Assembly (NCBI RefSeq): GCF_028368975.1
Contig: NZ_JAQNDM010000002.1
Location: forward strand, 4,086,425-4,150,424
Direction: 5' to 3'
From: Stigmatella ashevillena
GTDB lineage: Bacteria > Myxococcota > Myxococcia > Myxococcales > Myxococcaceae
DNA: 64,000 nucleotides
Shown: one piece after another, positions 31,004 through 43,260 of the stretch
Layout of the letters: each line of letters begins with the position of its first letter
Position numbering within the stretch: position 1 is the stretch's first letter
Notes under the pieces: model-generated
Databases searched by the model: none
The model's input: only the letters and a program-made list of their open reading frames with translations
What the model was told of the DNA's origin: nothing
Position numbers and translations under genes: made by a program

Positions 31004-31924
31004 TTGGACCTGTGGCCCTCTCTCCAGTCCTTCCTCCAGAGCGTGCGCGCCGGGAGCTTCAGCGCCGCGGCCCGGGACGCGGGCACCACCCCCTCCGCCT
31101 TCAGCAAGAAGGTCGCGCGGCTCGAGGCCCACCTCGGCGTCCGGCTCCTCCTCCGGGGCGCCAAGGGCCTGGAGCTCACCCCCGAGGGCCAAGAGCTCTT
31201 CCAGCGGGTGGATCGCGCCTTCGAGGACGTCGAGGATGCGTGCATGCAGGTCACCCGCGCGACCGAACCCCGGGGGCTGGTGCGGGTGAGCGCGGCCATG
31301 GACACGGGGCGGGACTGGCTGATTCCCCGCATCGCCCGGTTCGCCCGTGCCCATCCGCACGTGGCGTTGGAGGTGAGCCTGAGCGACCGCTTCGTGGACC
31401 TGCTGGCCGAGCGCTTCGATGTCGCGCTCCGGGTGGGCGAGTTCGACGATGGGCGGCTCATGCGCCGGCGGCTCGGACGCATGCGCCGTTGCTTCTGCGC
31501 CTCTCCCGCATACCTGCGCGCCCGGGGCGTCCCCCGCCGGCACGAGGAGCTCGCCGGGCATGTGAAGCTGGCCTACCTGCGGGGCACCCAGAGAGATCCC
31601 TGGGAGCTGCCCTCTGGAGGACGGATCCACCCGGAGGGCCCCTTCGCTTCCGACAACAACGCGGGCCTTCTCCAGTTGGTCCGGGCCGGGCTGGGGGTGG
31701 CGTGGCTGCCGGAGCTCACCATCGCGGAGGACGTCCAGCGGGGAACCCTGAAAGTGCTCGTGGAGCATCCGCCGGATCCTGGAATGCCCATCTCACTGGC
31801 CTTCCCGCAGGGCCGACTGCTCGCCCCACGGGTCCGGGCCTTCCTGGACTTCTTCGCCGAGGAGGCGCGCACCTCGCTGCACCCCTCGTCCCCTGCGGCG
31901 CCTAGTCCACGCGAGAGGCGCTGA
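31004..31924 (+). CDS. LysR family transcriptional regulator
   Basis: A 306-residue LysR regulator. I place the start at a TTG giving (M)DLWPSLQSFLQSVRAGSFSAAA, because GGAGG lies seven bases upstream and it matches the usual LysR N-terminus; an ATG 29 codons earlier would add unrelated sequence. The HTH is residues 17-60 (SFSAAARDAGTTPSAFSKKVARLE region) and the ligand-binding domain follows (VRVSAAMDTGRDWLIPRI, FDVALRVGEFDD). It likely regulates the divergent epimerase gene. Its end overlaps the convergent orphan gene by 23 bases. Confidence 0.9.
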   Translation: MDLWPSLQSFLQSVRAGSFSAAARDAGTTPSAFSKKVARLEAHLGVRLLLRGAKGLELTPEGQELFQRVDRAFEDVEDACMQVTRATEPRGLVRVSAAMDTGRDWLIPRIARFARAHPHVALEVSLSDRFVDLLAERFDVALRVGEFDDGRLMRRRLGRMRRCFCASPAYLRARGVPRRHEELAGHVKLAYLRGTQRDPWELPSGGRIHPEGPFASDNNAGLLQLVRAGLGVAWLPELTIAEDVQRGTLKVLVEHPPDPGMPISLAFPQGRLLAPRVRAFLDFFAEEARTSLHPSSPAAPSPRERR

Positions 31925-34202
31925 AGATGCGCTGCGCCTTCTGGTCACCGGAGGCAGGCACCACCGAGAACGTGCGCTCCACGGCTTGCAGTCCCTGAGA
32001 CGTCTTGGGCGCCAGCTCGAGCAGCAGGGCGCCGAAAGCCTTCAGGTGGAAGGACAGCCGCCAGAACTCCTCGAGTTCGTCGAAGGTCTTCTCGAGGACG
32101 CTGGGGTCGCGTCCCTGCATGAGGGCATCGCGAAGCAGGGCCATGCCCGCCACCATGCGCTGCCACCGCACATAAGTGCCCCCATACGACGAGCCGATGT
32201 CCGCGTGCCGCGCGTTCTTGTCGAGCACGTCGGCGAAGGTGTTGGGCTGCGCGATGCCTTTGCCTTCCCAGTAGGCCACCTCTCCCGCCGTCCCCTTCGC
32301 AATGGGATGCCGCTTGAGCCAGTCGGCGGCTTGCGCGGCGGCCGACGCAGGCGTCCAGCCCTTCGCCTTGGCCAGCAGGTAGGCCTTCCACACGGGGGCA
32401 TAGAGCTCCTGGCGGAACTCGGGGTCCACACGCGCCCGGCTGGTGTTCCAGGGCATGACACGGCCCAGGGCCCGAGCGAACGGATCCACATCCCCCGCAG
32501 CCACCCGCGGGATGAGCTCGCGCATCAGGGCATCCGGGAACTTGAGCTCCAGCCGCAGCTCCACCTCCTGGCCCTGGATCGTCGCCTGGATGTCCTTGAA
32601 GACCGTCTCCTCGTCGGCGTCATCGAAGACACGCCAGGTGATGGCTTCATCCAGCGCCTGGCGCAGCTCGTCGGACGAGGGCTTCCCCGAGCGGGCGATC
32701 TGGAAGTACAGCCCATACTGGAAGTCCTGGACCGTGGGCTGGATGCGGAACGCCTCCATGTCGCACTTGAAGTCGATGGACCAGCGGCCCTTGGTCCCGA
32801 AGAGACTTCCCTCGTAGCCGCGCACCCCCAGGAAGGCGATGCGCTGCGGACCGTGGATCGTATCGGGCGAGCCGTACTGCACCACGCGCTGGAGCTTCTT
32901 CTGGTCCCGGCTCTGGAGCTGCCACTTCGAGAAGCCCAGGGTGAAGCCCCACGCCTCCCGCCGTGTCTCCGAGTCCTGGTGGAAGTAGCTGCGCAGGGCA
33001 CCCCGCTCCACCTTCTTCAGCACATCCGACATCTTCCCGAGGATGAGCAGGGAGTGGAGCTGGCGCACCTGGGCGTCCGGCAGCTCCATGCGCAGCAGCG
33101 TCTGCTGCTCGGACAGGCGGGAGTACTCGTACTGGAAGCCCACCGTGAGCTTCTCCGAGGCCATCTGCGTAATGACTGCCCGGGCCTTGGCCTTGCGGTC
33201 CTCCCACGCCTGCTTGATGGCGGACGCGTCGGTCTCGTACTCCTCCATCCCGAGCCGGTCCAACACCCAGCGAAGCAGGTCCTTCTCCGTGTCGTTGAGG
33301 TTCAGGGGTTGAGAGGCCAGCTTGTCCACCAGCTTCTCGAACTGGGCCATGCCGGGCGCGCCGACGAGCGCGTCCACCACCGCCCCGAACACCTCCGGGT
33401 TCGCCGCCTCCACCGTGACGCCCACGTCGGCGGCCAACCGGGCCTCGCGGGCGGCGCCCTTCTGCACGGAGATGACCAGGAACCCCTCCTTCTCGCGCGA
33501 GAAGGTGAGGAGGAAGTCGTCCGTGACGGTGACGGAGCCTGTCACCGAGGCCCCCGCGGACGTCTTGAGGCTCAGGAGCGTCCCCGCGGGCAGCAGGCGG
33601 CTCAGGGCGCTGAGCTGGCTGGTGAAGACGTCGGACCACTTCAACGACATCGACGTCTCCATCCGGAGCCGGGCCTGGAACGCCAGGGCCTCCCGCGGCC
33701 GGAGCTTCAGCACGTGGTCGGTGACGAACGGCAGCCGCAAGTCCTTGGCATCCGCCAGGACGGCCTCCCGGGCCTTCCGGTCGGGCGGGTGCAAGCGGTA
33801 GTCGGCCACGAGCACGGACACATCGCCGCCCACGCCAATGGACAGGAAGGGCATGCTCGTGCCGGCCTGCGCCTTGACGCGGGTGCGCGCGGCGTACTTC
33901 AGCCACGTCTCGTCCGGGCCCAGCACGAGCGGAGGGCTCAGCCGGGAGACGTCCTCCTGCTCCTTCGAGACGGCCTCGCCGATGACGCCGTCCGCGTCCA
34001 CGTCCCCGGGCGCGTTGAAGGCCTCGATGGCGACCTCCACGCCCGCGTCGAGCACGAACGCGAGCCCCTCGAACCCCAGGTTGATGGGCTGCTCCACCCG
34101 GGCCGCGGCGAGGTTGAGGCGGATCTGCGAGTCCTTGAGCTGTGCGTCCGCGACGAGAACCTTCAGCTCATCCAGCTTGGCCAGCTTCCACTCGAAAGGC
34201 AC
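31902..34202 (-). CDS. Uncharacterised 766-residue protein
   Basis: I do not recognise this protein. The GTG giving (M)PFEWKLAKLDELKVLVADAQ has GAGG six bases upstream. There is no signal peptide or TM helix. The N-terminal half (about 1-290) is beta-rich and alternating (GVEVAIEAFNAPGDVDADG, LSIGVGGDVSVLVADYRL, LLSLKTSAGASVTGSVTV), followed by helical stretches, another beta-rich part (FTLGFSKWQLQSRDQKKLQ) and a helical C-terminus ending in WQRMVAGMALLRDALMQ (cores). Codon use is normal for the genome. It stands alone between lysR and the glucokinase gene. The repeated beta character suggests a large cytosolic or contact-dependent effector-like protein, but this is a guess. Confidence 0.6.
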   Translation of the reverse strand: MPFEWKLAKLDELKVLVADAQLKDSQIRLNLAAARVEQPINLGFEGLAFVLDAGVEVAIEAFNAPGDVDADGVIGEAVSKEQEDVSRLSPPLVLGPDETWLKYAARTRVKAQAGTSMPFLSIGVGGDVSVLVADYRLHPPDRKAREAVLADAKDLRLPFVTDHVLKLRPREALAFQARLRMETSMSLKWSDVFTSQLSALSRLLPAGTLLSLKTSAGASVTGSVTVTDDFLLTFSREKEGFLVISVQKGAAREARLAADVGVTVEAANPEVFGAVVDALVGAPGMAQFEKLVDKLASQPLNLNDTEKDLLRWVLDRLGMEEYETDASAIKQAWEDRKAKARAVITQMASEKLTVGFQYEYSRLSEQQTLLRMELPDAQVRQLHSLLILGKMSDVLKKVERGALRSYFHQDSETRREAWGFTLGFSKWQLQSRDQKKLQRVVQYGSPDTIHGPQRIAFLGVRGYEGSLFGTKGRWSIDFKCDMEAFRIQPTVQDFQYGLYFQIARSGKPSSDELRQALDEAITWRVFDDADEETVFKDIQATIQGQEVELRLELKFPDALMRELIPRVAAGDVDPFARALGRVMPWNTSRARVDPEFRQELYAPVWKAYLLAKAKGWTPASAAAQAADWLKRHPIAKGTAGEVAYWEGKGIAQPNTFADVLDKNARHADIGSSYGGTYVRWQRMVAGMALLRDALMQGRDPSVLEKTFDELEEFWRLSFHLKAFGALLLELAPKTSQGLQAVERTFSVVPASGDQKAQRIFSASRVD

Positions 34203-34299
34203 GGGAGACCTCGGGTCGTGAGGGCATCGTAAGAACAACGGCGGCCCGTCCAGTGTACCGGACAGGCCCCACCCGCGTCTGGCCTCCCGAGAGCCCGCG

Positions 34300-36648: not shown

Positions 36649-36813
36649 TGAGTGAGTCTTCGTTCCTCCGCCCCCGGAAGAGGGCACAGAGGGCGGCGGA
36701 CTCTACACAACGCGGGGCCCGCCGGGTACGAACCTCCATTGATTGGAACCTCAACCACACGGGGCCCCGCGAAAGCCCTGCGCATTCAGGATTTAGCAGA
36801 CTAAGCTGTAAAC

Positions 36814-37989
36814 ATGAAGAACCTTCGGAAGACATTCCGGCTCACCGCGCTGGTGCTGTCCGGGCTCGTGGGAAGCGCCTGTGAGAGCACCGTGCCCCCG
36901 GAGGGTGCGCCCGGCGAGCAGGAGACCGCTCCTGGGGAAGCGCTGCCGGGCGAGGAGCCAGGCCCCTACGCCGCCGCGGACTGCCCCGCGGGCAACTCCG
37001 CGGCACTTCAAGACCTCGGGGACGACCTGCCGGACGGCACGGGCACCTCCGTGTCCACCATGAGCATCCTGAACGTGGGCGGCACGGGCTCCTACCAGCG
37101 CGTGACGAACATGCTTCCCGGCGTCTGGGGACAGTCCTGTCCCTCCAATGCCTGTCAGAAGGCCACCTCGAACGTGAGCGGCGCGCTGGCCCCCTTCAAC
37201 GAGGAGATGACGGTCAACTTCCGCGGGCCGATGGAGCTGTATGACATCGCGGTCTACAAGCCAGACACCTCCGCGTGGAAGCGCGTGTCGTCTTGGAACC
37301 GCTGCGCCTCCACCAACCTCACCTTCTTCAACAACCTGGGGGGCACCGGCAGCGGGGAGTGGACCCTGTGCGGCGGAAACAGCCAGAGCTACGCCTCCGC
37401 GGATGGGAAGACGGCCGTGGCGGCCCCCACGCGCTTCACCGGCACGCTCGGCAACCGGGTCGAAATGAACATCCTGGCGGACCAAGCCTGTGTGGGCACC
37501 GGGGACGCCAGCGAGTGCGGCTTCTACCGGGGCGTCACCCGCCACGGCTGGGCGGGCGCGAAGCTGTTCGCCATCCGGGCGCGCATGCCGCGCTACACGG
37601 GGCCCATCACCGAGTACTACGACGATGTGCCCGCCATCTGGATGCTCAACGCGCGCGTGGTGCGCACCGCGCAGTATGGCTGCAACTGCCGGGGCATGGG
37701 CTCCCCGGGCGGTTGCGGCGAGCTCGACGTGGCGGAGGTTCTCCACGGCGGGCACCCGATGCACGCCACCAGCACCATCTACTCCTTTGAAGGGGCCACC
37801 GGCAGCGGGCCGAACTACTTCATGCGCCCGGTGAAGGAGAGCGCCACCTTCATCGTCCTCTTCGACGCGAGCGGGAAGGTGCAGATGCTGCGGCTCAAGG
37901 CGGATGCCTTCAACTTCGCGGACACCGTCTCCAACGCCACCGTCTCCGAGTGGCTGGCCCGGCAGGGCGTCACGATGTCCCTGCCGTGA
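36814..37989 (+). CDS. TOS1-like secreted lipoprotein with GH16-type ExDxxE motif
   Basis: A 391-residue lipoprotein (GSAC, Cys23) with a Pro/Gly/Glu linker (26-52). The mature part resembles the fungal TOS1 (DUF2401) cell-wall glycosidase-like family: a beta-rich first domain, then RHGWAGAKLFAIRARMPR, DDVPAIWMLNARVVRTAQYG, a Cys-rich loop and GELDVAEVLHGG. The last fits the GH16 catalytic pattern E-x-D-x-x-E with Glu303, Asp305, Glu308. It could cleave beta-1,3-glucan, consistent with fungal prey. It stands alone and ends 72 bases from the convergent histidine kinase gene. The TOS1 match is by motif recognition and needs a profile search. Confidence 0.65.
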   Translation: MKNLRKTFRLTALVLSGLVGSACESTVPPEGAPGEQETAPGEALPGEEPGPYAAADCPAGNSAALQDLGDDLPDGTGTSVSTMSILNVGGTGSYQRVTNMLPGVWGQSCPSNACQKATSNVSGALAPFNEEMTVNFRGPMELYDIAVYKPDTSAWKRVSSWNRCASTNLTFFNNLGGTGSGEWTLCGGNSQSYASADGKTAVAAPTRFTGTLGNRVEMNILADQACVGTGDASECGFYRGVTRHGWAGAKLFAIRARMPRYTGPITEYYDDVPAIWMLNARVVRTAQYGCNCRGMGSPGGCGELDVAEVLHGGHPMHATSTIYSFEGATGSGPNYFMRPVKESATFIVLFDASGKVQMLRLKADAFNFADTVSNATVSEWLARQGVTMSLP

Positions 37990-38061
37990 GCCCTCGCGGC
38001 CCCGCGAACGACTGGGGCGCCTCATCGTCGAGTCCAGGGTTACCTCGAGCCCTTGCCACGC

Positions 38062-39222
38062 CTATGGGCCGAGCGGCAACCTCGCCGTGAACAGGGCGCC
38101 CTGTCCCGGCACACTCTCGACGCGCAGGGTGCCGCCGTGGGCGTCGATGACCTGATGGGCGATGAAGAGCCCCAATCCCAAGCCGCCGTAGTGGCGCTCG
38201 GAGACCGCCCGAGCAAAGCGCTCGAAGACACGCACCTGCTGGTCCTGCTCGATGCCAATGCCCTCGTCGCGCACGGCCAGCAGCGCGGTGCCGTCTTCCA
38301 CGCTCACCTGGATGTGAACGGGCTTGCCAGCCCCATACTTGAGCGCGTTGGACAACAGATGGGTCACCACCTGCTCCAGCCGGACCCGGTCCCATGAACC
38401 CTCGACAGGGACGGGGGCCTCCACCACCACCTGGCTGCCCGCCTGGGCCGCCACGCGCACGTAGCGCGCCGCCACGTCCTTCACGACCGAGGACAGATCC
38501 ATCCTCACCCGGCGGATCTGCACCTTGTGCAAGCTGAGACGCGAGACATCCAACAAGTTGTCGATGAGCTCCGAGAGCTTGCGGACCTGGCGGCACGCCA
38601 CCTCCAGGTCCTTGTGGAGACGGGCCGCAGGCATGGCCGCTTCGGGGTGGCTCTTGACGGTCCGGAGCAAGGCGGTCAGCTTGAGTTGCAAGGGGGTAAG
38701 CGGCGTCTTCAACTCGTGGGACGCCACGGACAGGAACTCGTCCTGGGACTGCACGGTCTCACGCAGCCGCTCCAGCTCCCGCTCATCCTCGGCCCGCTTG
38801 CGCTGGGTGAAATCCCGCGTCACCTTGCCGAACCCCACCAGTTGACCGCTCTCGTCACGCAGCGCGGTGATGACGACATTGGCCCAGAAGAGGCTGCCAT
38901 CCTTGCGGACGCGCCACCCCTCTTCCTCGTAACGGCCCTCGCGCTCGGCGATCTCGAGCTCCCGCTGCGGCCTGCCTTGGGCCACATCCTCTTCCGGGTA
39001 GAACCGGCTGAAGTGCTGGCCCAGGATTTCTCCGGCCCGGTACCCCTTGATGCGCTCCGCTCCCGCGTTCCAACTGGCGACGTAGCCCTTCGGGTCGAGC
39101 GTCAGGATGGCATAGTCCTTGACGCTCTCGATGAACAGGCGGAGCTGGTCCGTCGCGTTCCCCGGAGAGCGCGCCTGCGCATAGGTGATGACCCCCGAAA
39201 TGGTCGGCTTTTCGTGGCTCAT
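38062..39222 (-). CDS. PAS domain sensor histidine kinase
   Basis: A 386-residue soluble hybrid-free histidine kinase starting at MSHEKPTISG. A PAS domain spans about 27-140 (WNAGAERIKGYRAGEILG, RKDGSLFWANVVITAL). The HisKA domain carries the phosphorylated His in SVASHELKTPL, and the HATPase has N-box NALKYG, DEGIGIEQ and GGLGLGLFIAHQ. It has no TM helix, so it senses a cytosolic signal, possibly redox or energy given the PAS fold. It lies downstream of the methionine operon by 128 bases and no response regulator gene is adjacent, so its partner is elsewhere. Confidence 0.92.
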   Translation of the reverse strand: MSHEKPTISGVITYAQARSPGNATDQLRLFIESVKDYAILTLDPKGYVASWNAGAERIKGYRAGEILGQHFSRFYPEEDVAQGRPQRELEIAEREGRYEEEGWRVRKDGSLFWANVVITALRDESGQLVGFGKVTRDFTQRKRAEDERELERLRETVQSQDEFLSVASHELKTPLTPLQLKLTALLRTVKSHPEAAMPAARLHKDLEVACRQVRKLSELIDNLLDVSRLSLHKVQIRRVRMDLSSVVKDVAARYVRVAAQAGSQVVVEAPVPVEGSWDRVRLEQVVTHLLSNALKYGAGKPVHIQVSVEDGTALLAVRDEGIGIEQDQQVRVFERFARAVSERHYGGLGLGLFIAHQVIDAHGGTLRVESVPGQGALFTARLPLGP

Positions 39223-39350
39223 GCCCGAGATGCACCTTGTCCAGGGGGCACCAGACCAAGAAACATGCCGTAAATCACCTTCTGTCCACGGCCTCCCGTC
39301 AACCAGCCAACCTCCTGCCCCACAGGGCAATAGCGCCCTTCTGAGGGACA

Positions 39351-41744
39351 TCAGCCTCCGCGGGCCACGTCCAGGAGCCCAGCAAGCACGCCCGCGGCGG
39401 TCACCCCTCCGCCAGCCCCTGCACCTCGAACCATCAGCGGCCAGGAAGAATGCCGCCCGGTGGTGAACGCCACCAAGGCCTCGGCCCCCCGGAGCCCTGC
39501 GGCGGGATGCTCCGGCGGGACGGCCACGGGCTCGACCTTCACCCTGGGCAGCTGTCCCAGCCCCGGAGGCAGTTCGATCCGGGCCAGGTACCGCAACACC
39601 CGGCCCTCGGCGCGCAGGCCCGCCATGCGGGAGGCAAACCTCCGGTCCCACCCCTCCAGCGCGATCAGGAATCGCTCCACATCTTCCTCCTCGAGGAGCT
39701 GTCTGGGCAGGAAGGGCTCCACCTCGATGTCCTCCAGCGAGACCGGCACCCCCAGCTCGCGTGCCAGGATGAGGGCCTTGCGCGCCACATCGAGGCCCAT
39801 CAAATCCTCACGGGGGTGGGGTTCGGTGTAGCCACGCTCCTTCGCGAGCCGGACCGCCCGGGACAACGCCACCCCTTGCGTGAGCTGCTCACACAGAAAG
39901 CCCAGGGAGCCTGACAGACAGCCCTCGATGAGCCGGACACGGTCTCCAGTGTGGACCAGGTCCGTGAGCGTGCGGAGGACGGGGAGGCTCGCGCCCACCG
40001 TGGTCTCATAATTCCAGCTGCGGCGATGGGTCCGGGCCAGGGAAAAGAGCTGCTCCCGGAGCGGCCAGGGCCCCGTCAGGGGTTTCTTGTTGGCGGAGAC
40101 GACGTGAATGCCGCGCTGGAAGGCCGCCGCATAGAGGTGCTCCATGCCCTCGGCCGCGGTGCAATCCACCAGCACGGGCCCCTTCAGGCGGCGCAGGCGG
40201 TCGAGCCCCCCGAGAAGCTCCGGTGTCCCTGGGGCGACGCGGGGCGCGCACGCCAACCGTTCCCTCCATTGGCTCAACGCCACCCCTTCCTCCTGAAAGA
40301 GCAGGTGCCGGGTGTCCACGATGCCGCACACCCGGAGGAAGACCCCCTGCGTCCGCGCCAGGACGTCCTGTTGGCCCTGAAGCTGCTCCAGCAGGTTTCC
40401 GCCGACGGTTCCGTGCCCCAGCAACAGCACGTTCACCTCCGTCACCTCCGTGCGGTGCGCCTGGACCTGGAGCCTGGACGGTGGAGGGCTCTCGGGCGCG
40501 GGCAGGGCGAGCGCGCGCCGCAGCAGTTCCTCCAGCGGCTCCCACTCGATGAGAAAGCCATCATGGCCATGAAGGCTGGAGAGCGCCGCGTACTCCGAGT
40601 GGCGGCCCAGGGCCCGCAAGCGCTCGGACAGCTTCTCCATGTGCTCTGGAAAAAAGAGCTGATCCCGGTCGATCCCCACGCACAGGGTGCTCGCCCGGAT
40701 GCGCGCCACCCCCCACGCCCCCTCCGGGGTGCCCTCGGGCGGGCGCGAGAGATCATGGTGGTCCATGGCCCCCAACAACGCCAAGTAGGACCGGGTGTCG
40801 AAGCGCGCGCGCAGCTGCCGACCCTGATGCTCCAGGTAGCTCTGCACGGGATAGAGCGCACGCGGAGACCAGTCCGAGGCGGGCCTTGCCTGACGCGCCT
40901 CCAGGCTGGGCTCCGCGCGGTAGGTCAACATGGCGAGTTGGCGCGCCAACTCCAGGCCCCGCCGGGAAGCCCCCGGGAACTCCAAGTCCAGGAGCAACGC
41001 CTGCCGCGCCACGTGGTTCCACCCCACCACCCAGGAGCTCGCGGCTTCACAGGCGGCGATGGGAAGAAGCCGCTCGAAGCGCTCGGGGGCCAGGACCGCG
41101 AGGCACAACACAATCATGCCCCCCAGCGAGCCTCCCGCGAGCAGTTCCACCCGTTCGATGCCCAGCGCATCCAACGCTTGAAGAATGGCGCGCGCCTGAT
41201 CCCACGGGGTGATGGTGGCGGGCAAGGAGCGCTCATCAATCCGCTGCTCTGCCTGGGAGAGTGGCTCGGAGGACCCGGTGGGGCGGTCCTCCACGCGGGA
41301 GGGAAAGCCCTCGTCGGCGGGACCCGAGCTGCCATAGCAGGAACCCAGGTTGTTGAAGCACAACAGGCGCACCCGCTCCGGATCCAACGCCCGGCCGGGA
41401 CCGATGAGCGGCTCCCACCATCCCCCCGGTCCCCCCGCGCGCATGTCCCCGGTGAGCGCGTGGACCAACAGCACGGTGGGCACGGAGGGATCAGGCCTCT
41501 GACCCCCCCTCGGTTCCACCTCCGCGGCCAGTTGGCGCCGTTCCTCCCGCGTGCGGCGGACGACCCTGAGCGCGTTCTCCCGCACCGCTTCGTCCGGCAG
41601 GACGTGGCTTCTCGACTGGAGCCACGTCCTGTCTTGCCCAGGGCCCCACCACCAACCGCGGGAGACGTGGGACGTGAGCCATGCGCCCCCTTCGAGAGGG
41701 AGATCCGGGAGCGGCAGATCAAAGACATGGGAAAGGGCGGACAT
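39351..41744 (-). CDS. Homoserine O-acetyltransferase-homoserine dehydrogenase fusion
   Basis: A 797-residue two-domain enzyme. Residues 1-415 are a MetX-type alpha/beta hydrolase with LVHALTGDMRAGG, the nucleophile elbow LLAGGSLGGM (Ser206), a candidate Asp361 in DRDQLFFP and His394 in HGHDGFL. A Pro-rich linker (416-433) leads to a homoserine dehydrogenase domain: VNVLLLGHGTVGG (GxGxxG), SANKKPLTG, YETTVGASLPVL and EGCLSGSLGFLC. It thus both makes and acetylates homoserine for methionine synthesis. It follows metY by 64 bases. GAGG is three bases before the ATG. No aspartokinase is fused or nearby. Confidence 0.9.
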   Translation of the reverse strand: MSALSHVFDLPLPDLPLEGGAWLTSHVSRGWWWGPGQDRTWLQSRSHVLPDEAVRENALRVVRRTREERRQLAAEVEPRGGQRPDPSVPTVLLVHALTGDMRAGGPGGWWEPLIGPGRALDPERVRLLCFNNLGSCYGSSGPADEGFPSRVEDRPTGSSEPLSQAEQRIDERSLPATITPWDQARAILQALDALGIERVELLAGGSLGGMIVLCLAVLAPERFERLLPIAACEAASSWVVGWNHVARQALLLDLEFPGASRRGLELARQLAMLTYRAEPSLEARQARPASDWSPRALYPVQSYLEHQGRQLRARFDTRSYLALLGAMDHHDLSRPPEGTPEGAWGVARIRASTLCVGIDRDQLFFPEHMEKLSERLRALGRHSEYAALSSLHGHDGFLIEWEPLEELLRRALALPAPESPPPSRLQVQAHRTEVTEVNVLLLGHGTVGGNLLEQLQGQQDVLARTQGVFLRVCGIVDTRHLLFQEEGVALSQWRERLACAPRVAPGTPELLGGLDRLRRLKGPVLVDCTAAEGMEHLYAAAFQRGIHVVSANKKPLTGPWPLREQLFSLARTHRRSWNYETTVGASLPVLRTLTDLVHTGDRVRLIEGCLSGSLGFLCEQLTQGVALSRAVRLAKERGYTEPHPREDLMGLDVARKALILARELGVPVSLEDIEVEPFLPRQLLEEEDVERFLIALEGWDRRFASRMAGLRAEGRVLRYLARIELPPGLGQLPRVKVEPVAVPPEHPAAGLRGAEALVAFTTGRHSSWPLMVRGAGAGGGVTAAGVLAGLLDVARGG

Positions 41745-41808
41745 GGGCCTCTTCCTGAGAGGAGCGGGGAAAGACACGGGGAGGGACGGGGGGAACGGCG
41801 CCAGGGAC

Positions 41809-43260
<1,452 letters not shown>

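Follow-up and report, generated by a model that had tools for sequence, protein, structure and literature searches.

The window, i.e., the whole stretch of 64,000 nucleotides of the Stigmatella ashevillena genome analysed here, contains a gene for a lipoprotein resembling the fungal TOS1 proteins. In the window, genes for a sugar-binding protein, a TRAP-type receptor, an SDR, a LysR protein, an unknown protein of 778 amino acids, a ROK kinase and phosphoglucomutase are followed by the TOS1-like gene, homoserine genes and a gene for a CotH protein. The genes adjoining the TOS1-like gene are divergently oriented, and no glucanase genes are found beside it. The features of the gene are as follows (E values from hmmscan against Pfam):

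36814..37989, + strand: TOS1-like lipoprotein gene with ATG start, 391 amino acids plus stop, containing PF10287 and PF10290; eight full-length orthologues in the phylum
36814..36882, + strand: lipoprotein signal peptide, recognised by visual inspection of the sequence; C23, the presumed lipidated cysteine, is its last residue (LVGSAC)
37066..37263, + strand: Tos1 N-terminal domain PF10290, residues 85-150 (67.3 bits, E 1.6e-18)
37273..37953, + strand: Tos1 C-terminal domain PF10287, residues 154-380 (178.1 bits, E 2.6e-52)
37567..37782, + strand: GH16-like catalytic core, approximately residues 252-323, with approximate boundaries (hhalign against myxobacterial GH16)
37720..37737, + strand: putative catalytic motif E303-L-D305-V-A-E308 (E-x-D-x-x-E), read from the sequence and kept in 13 of 13 active-type homologues

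The protein consists of the signal (residues 1-23), a Pro/Glu/Gly-rich linker and the two TOS1 domains. PF10290 (YJL171C_Tos1_N, formerly DUF2403) precedes PF10287 (YJL171C_Tos1_C, formerly DUF2401), the latter match covers positions 2-228 of the 228 in the profile, and both exceed the Pfam cut-off of 27 bits that applies to either domain. Judged by these matches, the protein is a member of the TOS1/YJL171C family, and the relationship is strong and full-length. The first-pass annotation had noticed a TOS1-like segment around residues 272-289 (VPAIWMLNARVVRTAQYG) and 300-309 (GCGELDVAEV). This identification was right, and it is stronger than claimed because a second TOS1 domain, PF10290, is present too. 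That the protein is lipid-anchored, as was also proposed, agrees with the lipobox-like N-terminus (LVGSA-C23), which was read by eye, and close relatives start similarly. None of the NCBIfam models matched the protein, and a search of the PDB by sequence revealed no relative. In the host genome (10.95 Mb in two contigs), it is the sole PF10287 protein found by Pfam profile search. The same genome contains five GH16 matches and three GH64-type matches.

The neighbourhood is conserved in three other genomes (G095, G096, and G097) and thus represents one syntenic site in four species, including that of the window. The three remaining members of the genus retain the left side as far as the phosphoglucomutase gene but have neither the TOS1-like gene nor the right side at this place. 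The synteny breakpoint lies at window positions 36730-41891; the part to its left, which encodes the 778-amino-acid protein, the ROK kinase and phosphoglucomutase, is kept in 7/7 genomes of the genus and the part to its right in 4/7. The 778-amino-acid protein (31902-34238), whose gene occupies this site in each of the seven genomes, matches no Pfam or NCBIfam family over threshold. A gene for a PAS-type sensor histidine kinase (38062-39651) also adjoins the TOS1-like gene, and of G095, G096, and G097, only G096 was found to have a copy at least 50% identical at the same site. Outside the genus, the TOS1-like gene sits at different sites.

Relation of the core to GH16

GELDVAE had been taken by the first-pass annotation to fit the catalytic pattern of GH16. 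At the level of family profiles, this was not borne out: the Pfam GH16 models do not match the window protein (PF00722, E 0.1; hmmscan), and its relatives do not match PF00722 even at E 10. In a profile-profile comparison, however, the GH16 pattern was recovered, with GELDVAE in register. When the profile of 13 active-type homologues was aligned with that of 20 myxobacterial GH16 (PF00722) proteins using hhalign, a score of 48.7 was obtained, whereas 150 column shuffles gave a mean of 15.0 and a maximum of 23.9, which establishes a relation of the core to GH16. The alignment pairs RARMP..VPAIWMLNA..GGCGELDVAE with RIKLP..WPAFWMLGA..ACGEIDIME. Since the match spans RARMP..VPAIWML..CGELDVAE, the residues E303, D305, and E308 fit GH16 catalysis, and the nucleophile, its helper and the acid/base of the two families are in register. 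Thus, the window protein shares with the GH16 laminarinases (PF00722) a significantly aligning core, RxxMP..PAxWML..CGExDxxE, but it differs from them in having no Pfam GH16 match and a fold that is unaligned outside this core.

According to two papers citing Steczkiewicz et al. (2010), a circular permutation of the GH16-type fold has been proposed for TOS1-type proteins (PMC5872309, PMC4176579). In our comparisons, neither a doubled GH16 profile nor the TOS1 N-terminal domain alone against the C-terminal strands of GH16 scored above shuffles. Two AlphaFold models are beta-rich (pLDDT 62 and 69; pTM 0.72 and 0.78), but neither had a significant match when the PDB was searched for similar folds. 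One suggestive hit, to the circularly permuted lichenase 1ajo (E 0.17), was not recovered with the better model and was therefore rejected as a fold match.

Bacterial relatives and their glucanase neighbours

The active-type gene, designated clade A, is found in 9 of the 195 genomes of the phylum, including that of the window. The eight further clade A genes are full length, and their products are 76-93% identical to the window protein and distributed over three genera. A weaker homologue, clade B, is present in eight other genomes, and clade C, which was added by a search with PF10290, in three genomes that each contain clade A as well. When 84,980 prokaryote genomes were scanned with two peptide patterns, four loci in three MAGs were confirmed, all of them more distant copies of the active type; this number is a lower bound because the scan detects only proteins containing the two peptides. 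Two of these proteins (L018 and L020), from MAGs labelled Proteobacteria and Myxococcales, are ~50% identical to the window protein. The others (L019 and L021) are paralogues with ~31% identity; of 58 genomes in the phylum of their MAG, 1 was positive. Eukaryotic contamination was considered for this pair and rejected on account of the bacterial neighbour genes, although both loci are from a single MAG. Searches of plasmids (tblastn) and of IMG/VR viral contigs revealed no homologues.

In the tree, clades B and C together form one side of a split with 100/100 support. All their proteins have Q-x-N-x-x-E where the active-type proteins have E-x-D-x-x-E.

Several of the relatives are encoded beside glucanase genes. 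At L018 and L020, a gene for a GH64 beta-1,3-glucanase lipoprotein begins 23 bp downstream of the TOS1-like gene. The clade B gene in G040 is followed by a GH64 gene (gap of 32 bp) and a GH128/Glyco_hydro_cc gene (gap of 5 bp), and that in G432 has a 4-bp overlap with a GH128 gene, after which a thaumatin-domain lipoprotein is encoded. Genes located downstream at L055, L056, and L060 encode TIM-barrel lipoproteins that match GH2_C, and clade C adjoins a gene for a GH43-ricin lectin protein. Since related loci form operon-like arrays together with GH64 and GH128 genes, a glucan-directed role is well motivated; GH64 is named Beta-1,3-glucanase in Pfam, and GH128 is a family known for beta-1,3-glucan. 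GH64 matches were present in 16/17 TOS1-positive genomes vs. 3/176 others in the phylum (Fisher p 1.7e-19, relatedness ignored) and, within genus g19, in 4/4 TOS1-positive genomes vs. 1/23 others (Fisher p 2.8e-4, relatedness ignored). A bacterial branch of TOS1-like lipoproteins linked to GH64/GH128 was not found in the literature searched, the scope of which excluded most subscription journals. The TOS1 family itself is already known.

Two side observations concern these neighbourhoods. At L061:8296-11176, three lipoprotein genes, i.e., a TOS1-like gene of clade B, a GH128 gene overlapping it by 4 bp and a thaumatin-domain gene, resemble a small operon for beta-1,3-glucan utilisation. The ricin-lectin protein encoded beside clade C at L058:6133-8130 has a weak NPP1 match below the cut-off (18.7 bits; cut-off 21).

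Proposed function

The window protein is probably a TOS1-type enzyme, anchored at the surface, that hydrolyses or transglycosylates beta-1,3-glucan and helps to breach the walls of fungi or oomycetes. Family membership, a lipobox-like N-terminus, a GH16-like core with an intact motif and the GH64/GH128 linkage of relatives are all present; activity, substrate and location at the outer membrane are predicted, and fungal prey is inferred from the lifestyle. A role in attacking walls is probable because the family is one of fungal and oomycete walls and because the genes of relatives adjoin those of enzymes cutting beta-1,3-glucan. The folded part of the lipoprotein would act on this glucan as a GH16-related glycoside hydrolase or transglycosylase, with E303 as the presumed nucleophile, D305 as its helper and E308 as the acid/base. 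The lipid anchor would keep the enzyme on the cell surface. There, together with the enzymes of GH16 and GH64 type that the same genome encodes, it would help to cut or open up the beta-1,3-glucan in the walls of fungi or oomycetes when the cells feed by contact.

The closest counterparts are eukaryotic. Fungal TOS1/YJL171C has PF10290 and PF10287 in the same order over the full length, the E-x-D-x-x-E motif and secretion to the surface in common with the window protein, but it is attached to the wall, whereas the latter has a bacterial host and a lipid anchor. In the OPEL proteins of oomycetes, GH64-TLP and TOS1-like domains are combined within a single chain (PMC7219551). They resemble the bacterial proteins in their TOS1-like domain with E-x-D-x-x-E and in the association with GH64, by fusion in OPEL and by adjacent genes in bacterial relatives. 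However, OPEL is a free secreted eukaryotic protein, and the window protein has neither a GH64 domain nor an adjoining GH64 gene. The bacterial neighbourhoods, which mirror the fusion in OPEL, the co-occurrence across genomes and the fusion itself thus all point to beta-1,3-glucan. Among myxobacteria, GluM of Corallococcus is an outer-membrane beta-1,6-glucanase that is used on fungi (PMC10800785), which makes a surface glucan hydrolase plausible. The antifungal role of this surface-held glucanase is the one proposed for the window lipoprotein, but the two belong to different families: GluM forms a beta-barrel in the outer membrane and attacks beta-1,6-glucan, and the window protein is a lipoprotein.

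It is doubtful, but deserves consideration, that the window protein binds glucan or is purely transglycosylating, with little hydrolase activity, and serves in attaching to glucan-coated surfaces or in remodelling, not in digestion. Recombinant OPEL proteins, which retain the motif, had no activity on laminarin (PMC7219551), and in the account that a review gives of Chang et al. (2015), OPEL was likewise inactive on laminarin, whilst mutation of the motif abolished its elicitor activity (PMC4915311). A yeast TOS1-family protein is listed as a wall component without demonstrated remodelling activity (PMC10932003), and a whole bacterial sister branch lacks the nucleophile and helper and is still encoded beside glucanase genes. 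However, the OPEL assays relied on eukaryotic protein that was incomplete or had been produced in bacteria, a limitation that the authors point out (PMC7219551), and neither the window protein nor any of its active-type relatives has lost one of the three catalytic residues.

A role without any connection to fungi appears improbable. In such a role, the substrate would be another polysaccharide, for instance an exopolysaccharide produced by the bacterium itself, a glucan of plants or algae or a polymer of bacterial walls, and the protein would function in development or nutrition. GH16-type folds accept many substrates, and the window gene adjoins those of phosphoglucomutase and a ROK-family sugar kinase, which belong to general sugar metabolism. 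Moreover, the substrate of OPEL was left unidentified (PMC4915311). Against this stand the link of relatives to GH64 and GH128, both beta-1,3-glucan families, the divergent orientation of the neighbouring genes and the different site of the gene in other genera.

If the preferred role as a wall-directed glucanase is true, TOS1-like lipoproteins add to the means by which predatory myxobacteria attack fungi. In addition, the predicted glucanase activity of the fungal and oomycete TOS1 family has no demonstration in the papers found. The failed tests on oomycete members were perhaps due to folding, and the compact bacterial homologues, which may be expressed more easily, could settle this question.

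Origin and the Q-x-N-x-x-E branch

The first-pass annotation had considered a transfer between kingdoms. That the myxobacterium took up a TOS1 gene from a fungus in recent times is very unlikely. It would fit with the description of the family mainly from Ascomycota and oomycetes, with its apparent rarity in prokaryotes (four confirmed loci in the two-pattern scan of 84,980 genomes) and with the position of the gene where synteny breaks within its genus. However, the gene bears no compositional or intron sign of recent arrival: its GC3 is 0.918, vs. 0.85-0.92 in its neighbours, it is a single ORF, and it encodes a bacterial lipoprotein signal. Furthermore, the gradient of identity among orthologues, from 76-93% in three genera via ~50% in distant MAGs to ~31% in another lineage, implies a long bacterial history. 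As the only fungal comparator, a yeast YJL171C sequence that does not come from a database record was used; it is ~35% identical to the window protein and scores 293 bits to PF10287, and is thus at least a family member. In a tree with this single fungal row, its branch measures ~3 changes per column and has no resolved place, which is why the topology of this tree was left out of the argument on transfer. The large distance of the lone, provisional comparator, the native composition and the absence of introns together make a recent transfer from fungi unlikely. An ancient transfer, in either direction, may have occurred. A more speculative scenario, which we regard as rather unlikely, is that the TOS1-like proteins are old bacterial lipoproteins for attacking glucan with an early link to GH64, that TOS1 and OPEL descend from them by ancient transfer, and that clades B and C became a non-catalytic glucan-binding partner accompanying GH64 and GH128.

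The sequences of clades B and C suggest possible glucan-binding pseudoenzymes, because the nucleophile and helper became amides while the genes stay near those of glucanases. Dead-enzyme receptors for glucan are known in insects, and the proteins of the Q/N branch may be their counterpart in bacteria. TOS1-like lipoproteins with Q-x-N-x-x-E are encoded at L010-L017, L039-L041, L046, and L061, and some of these genes adjoin GH64, GH128, thaumatin or GH43-lectin genes.
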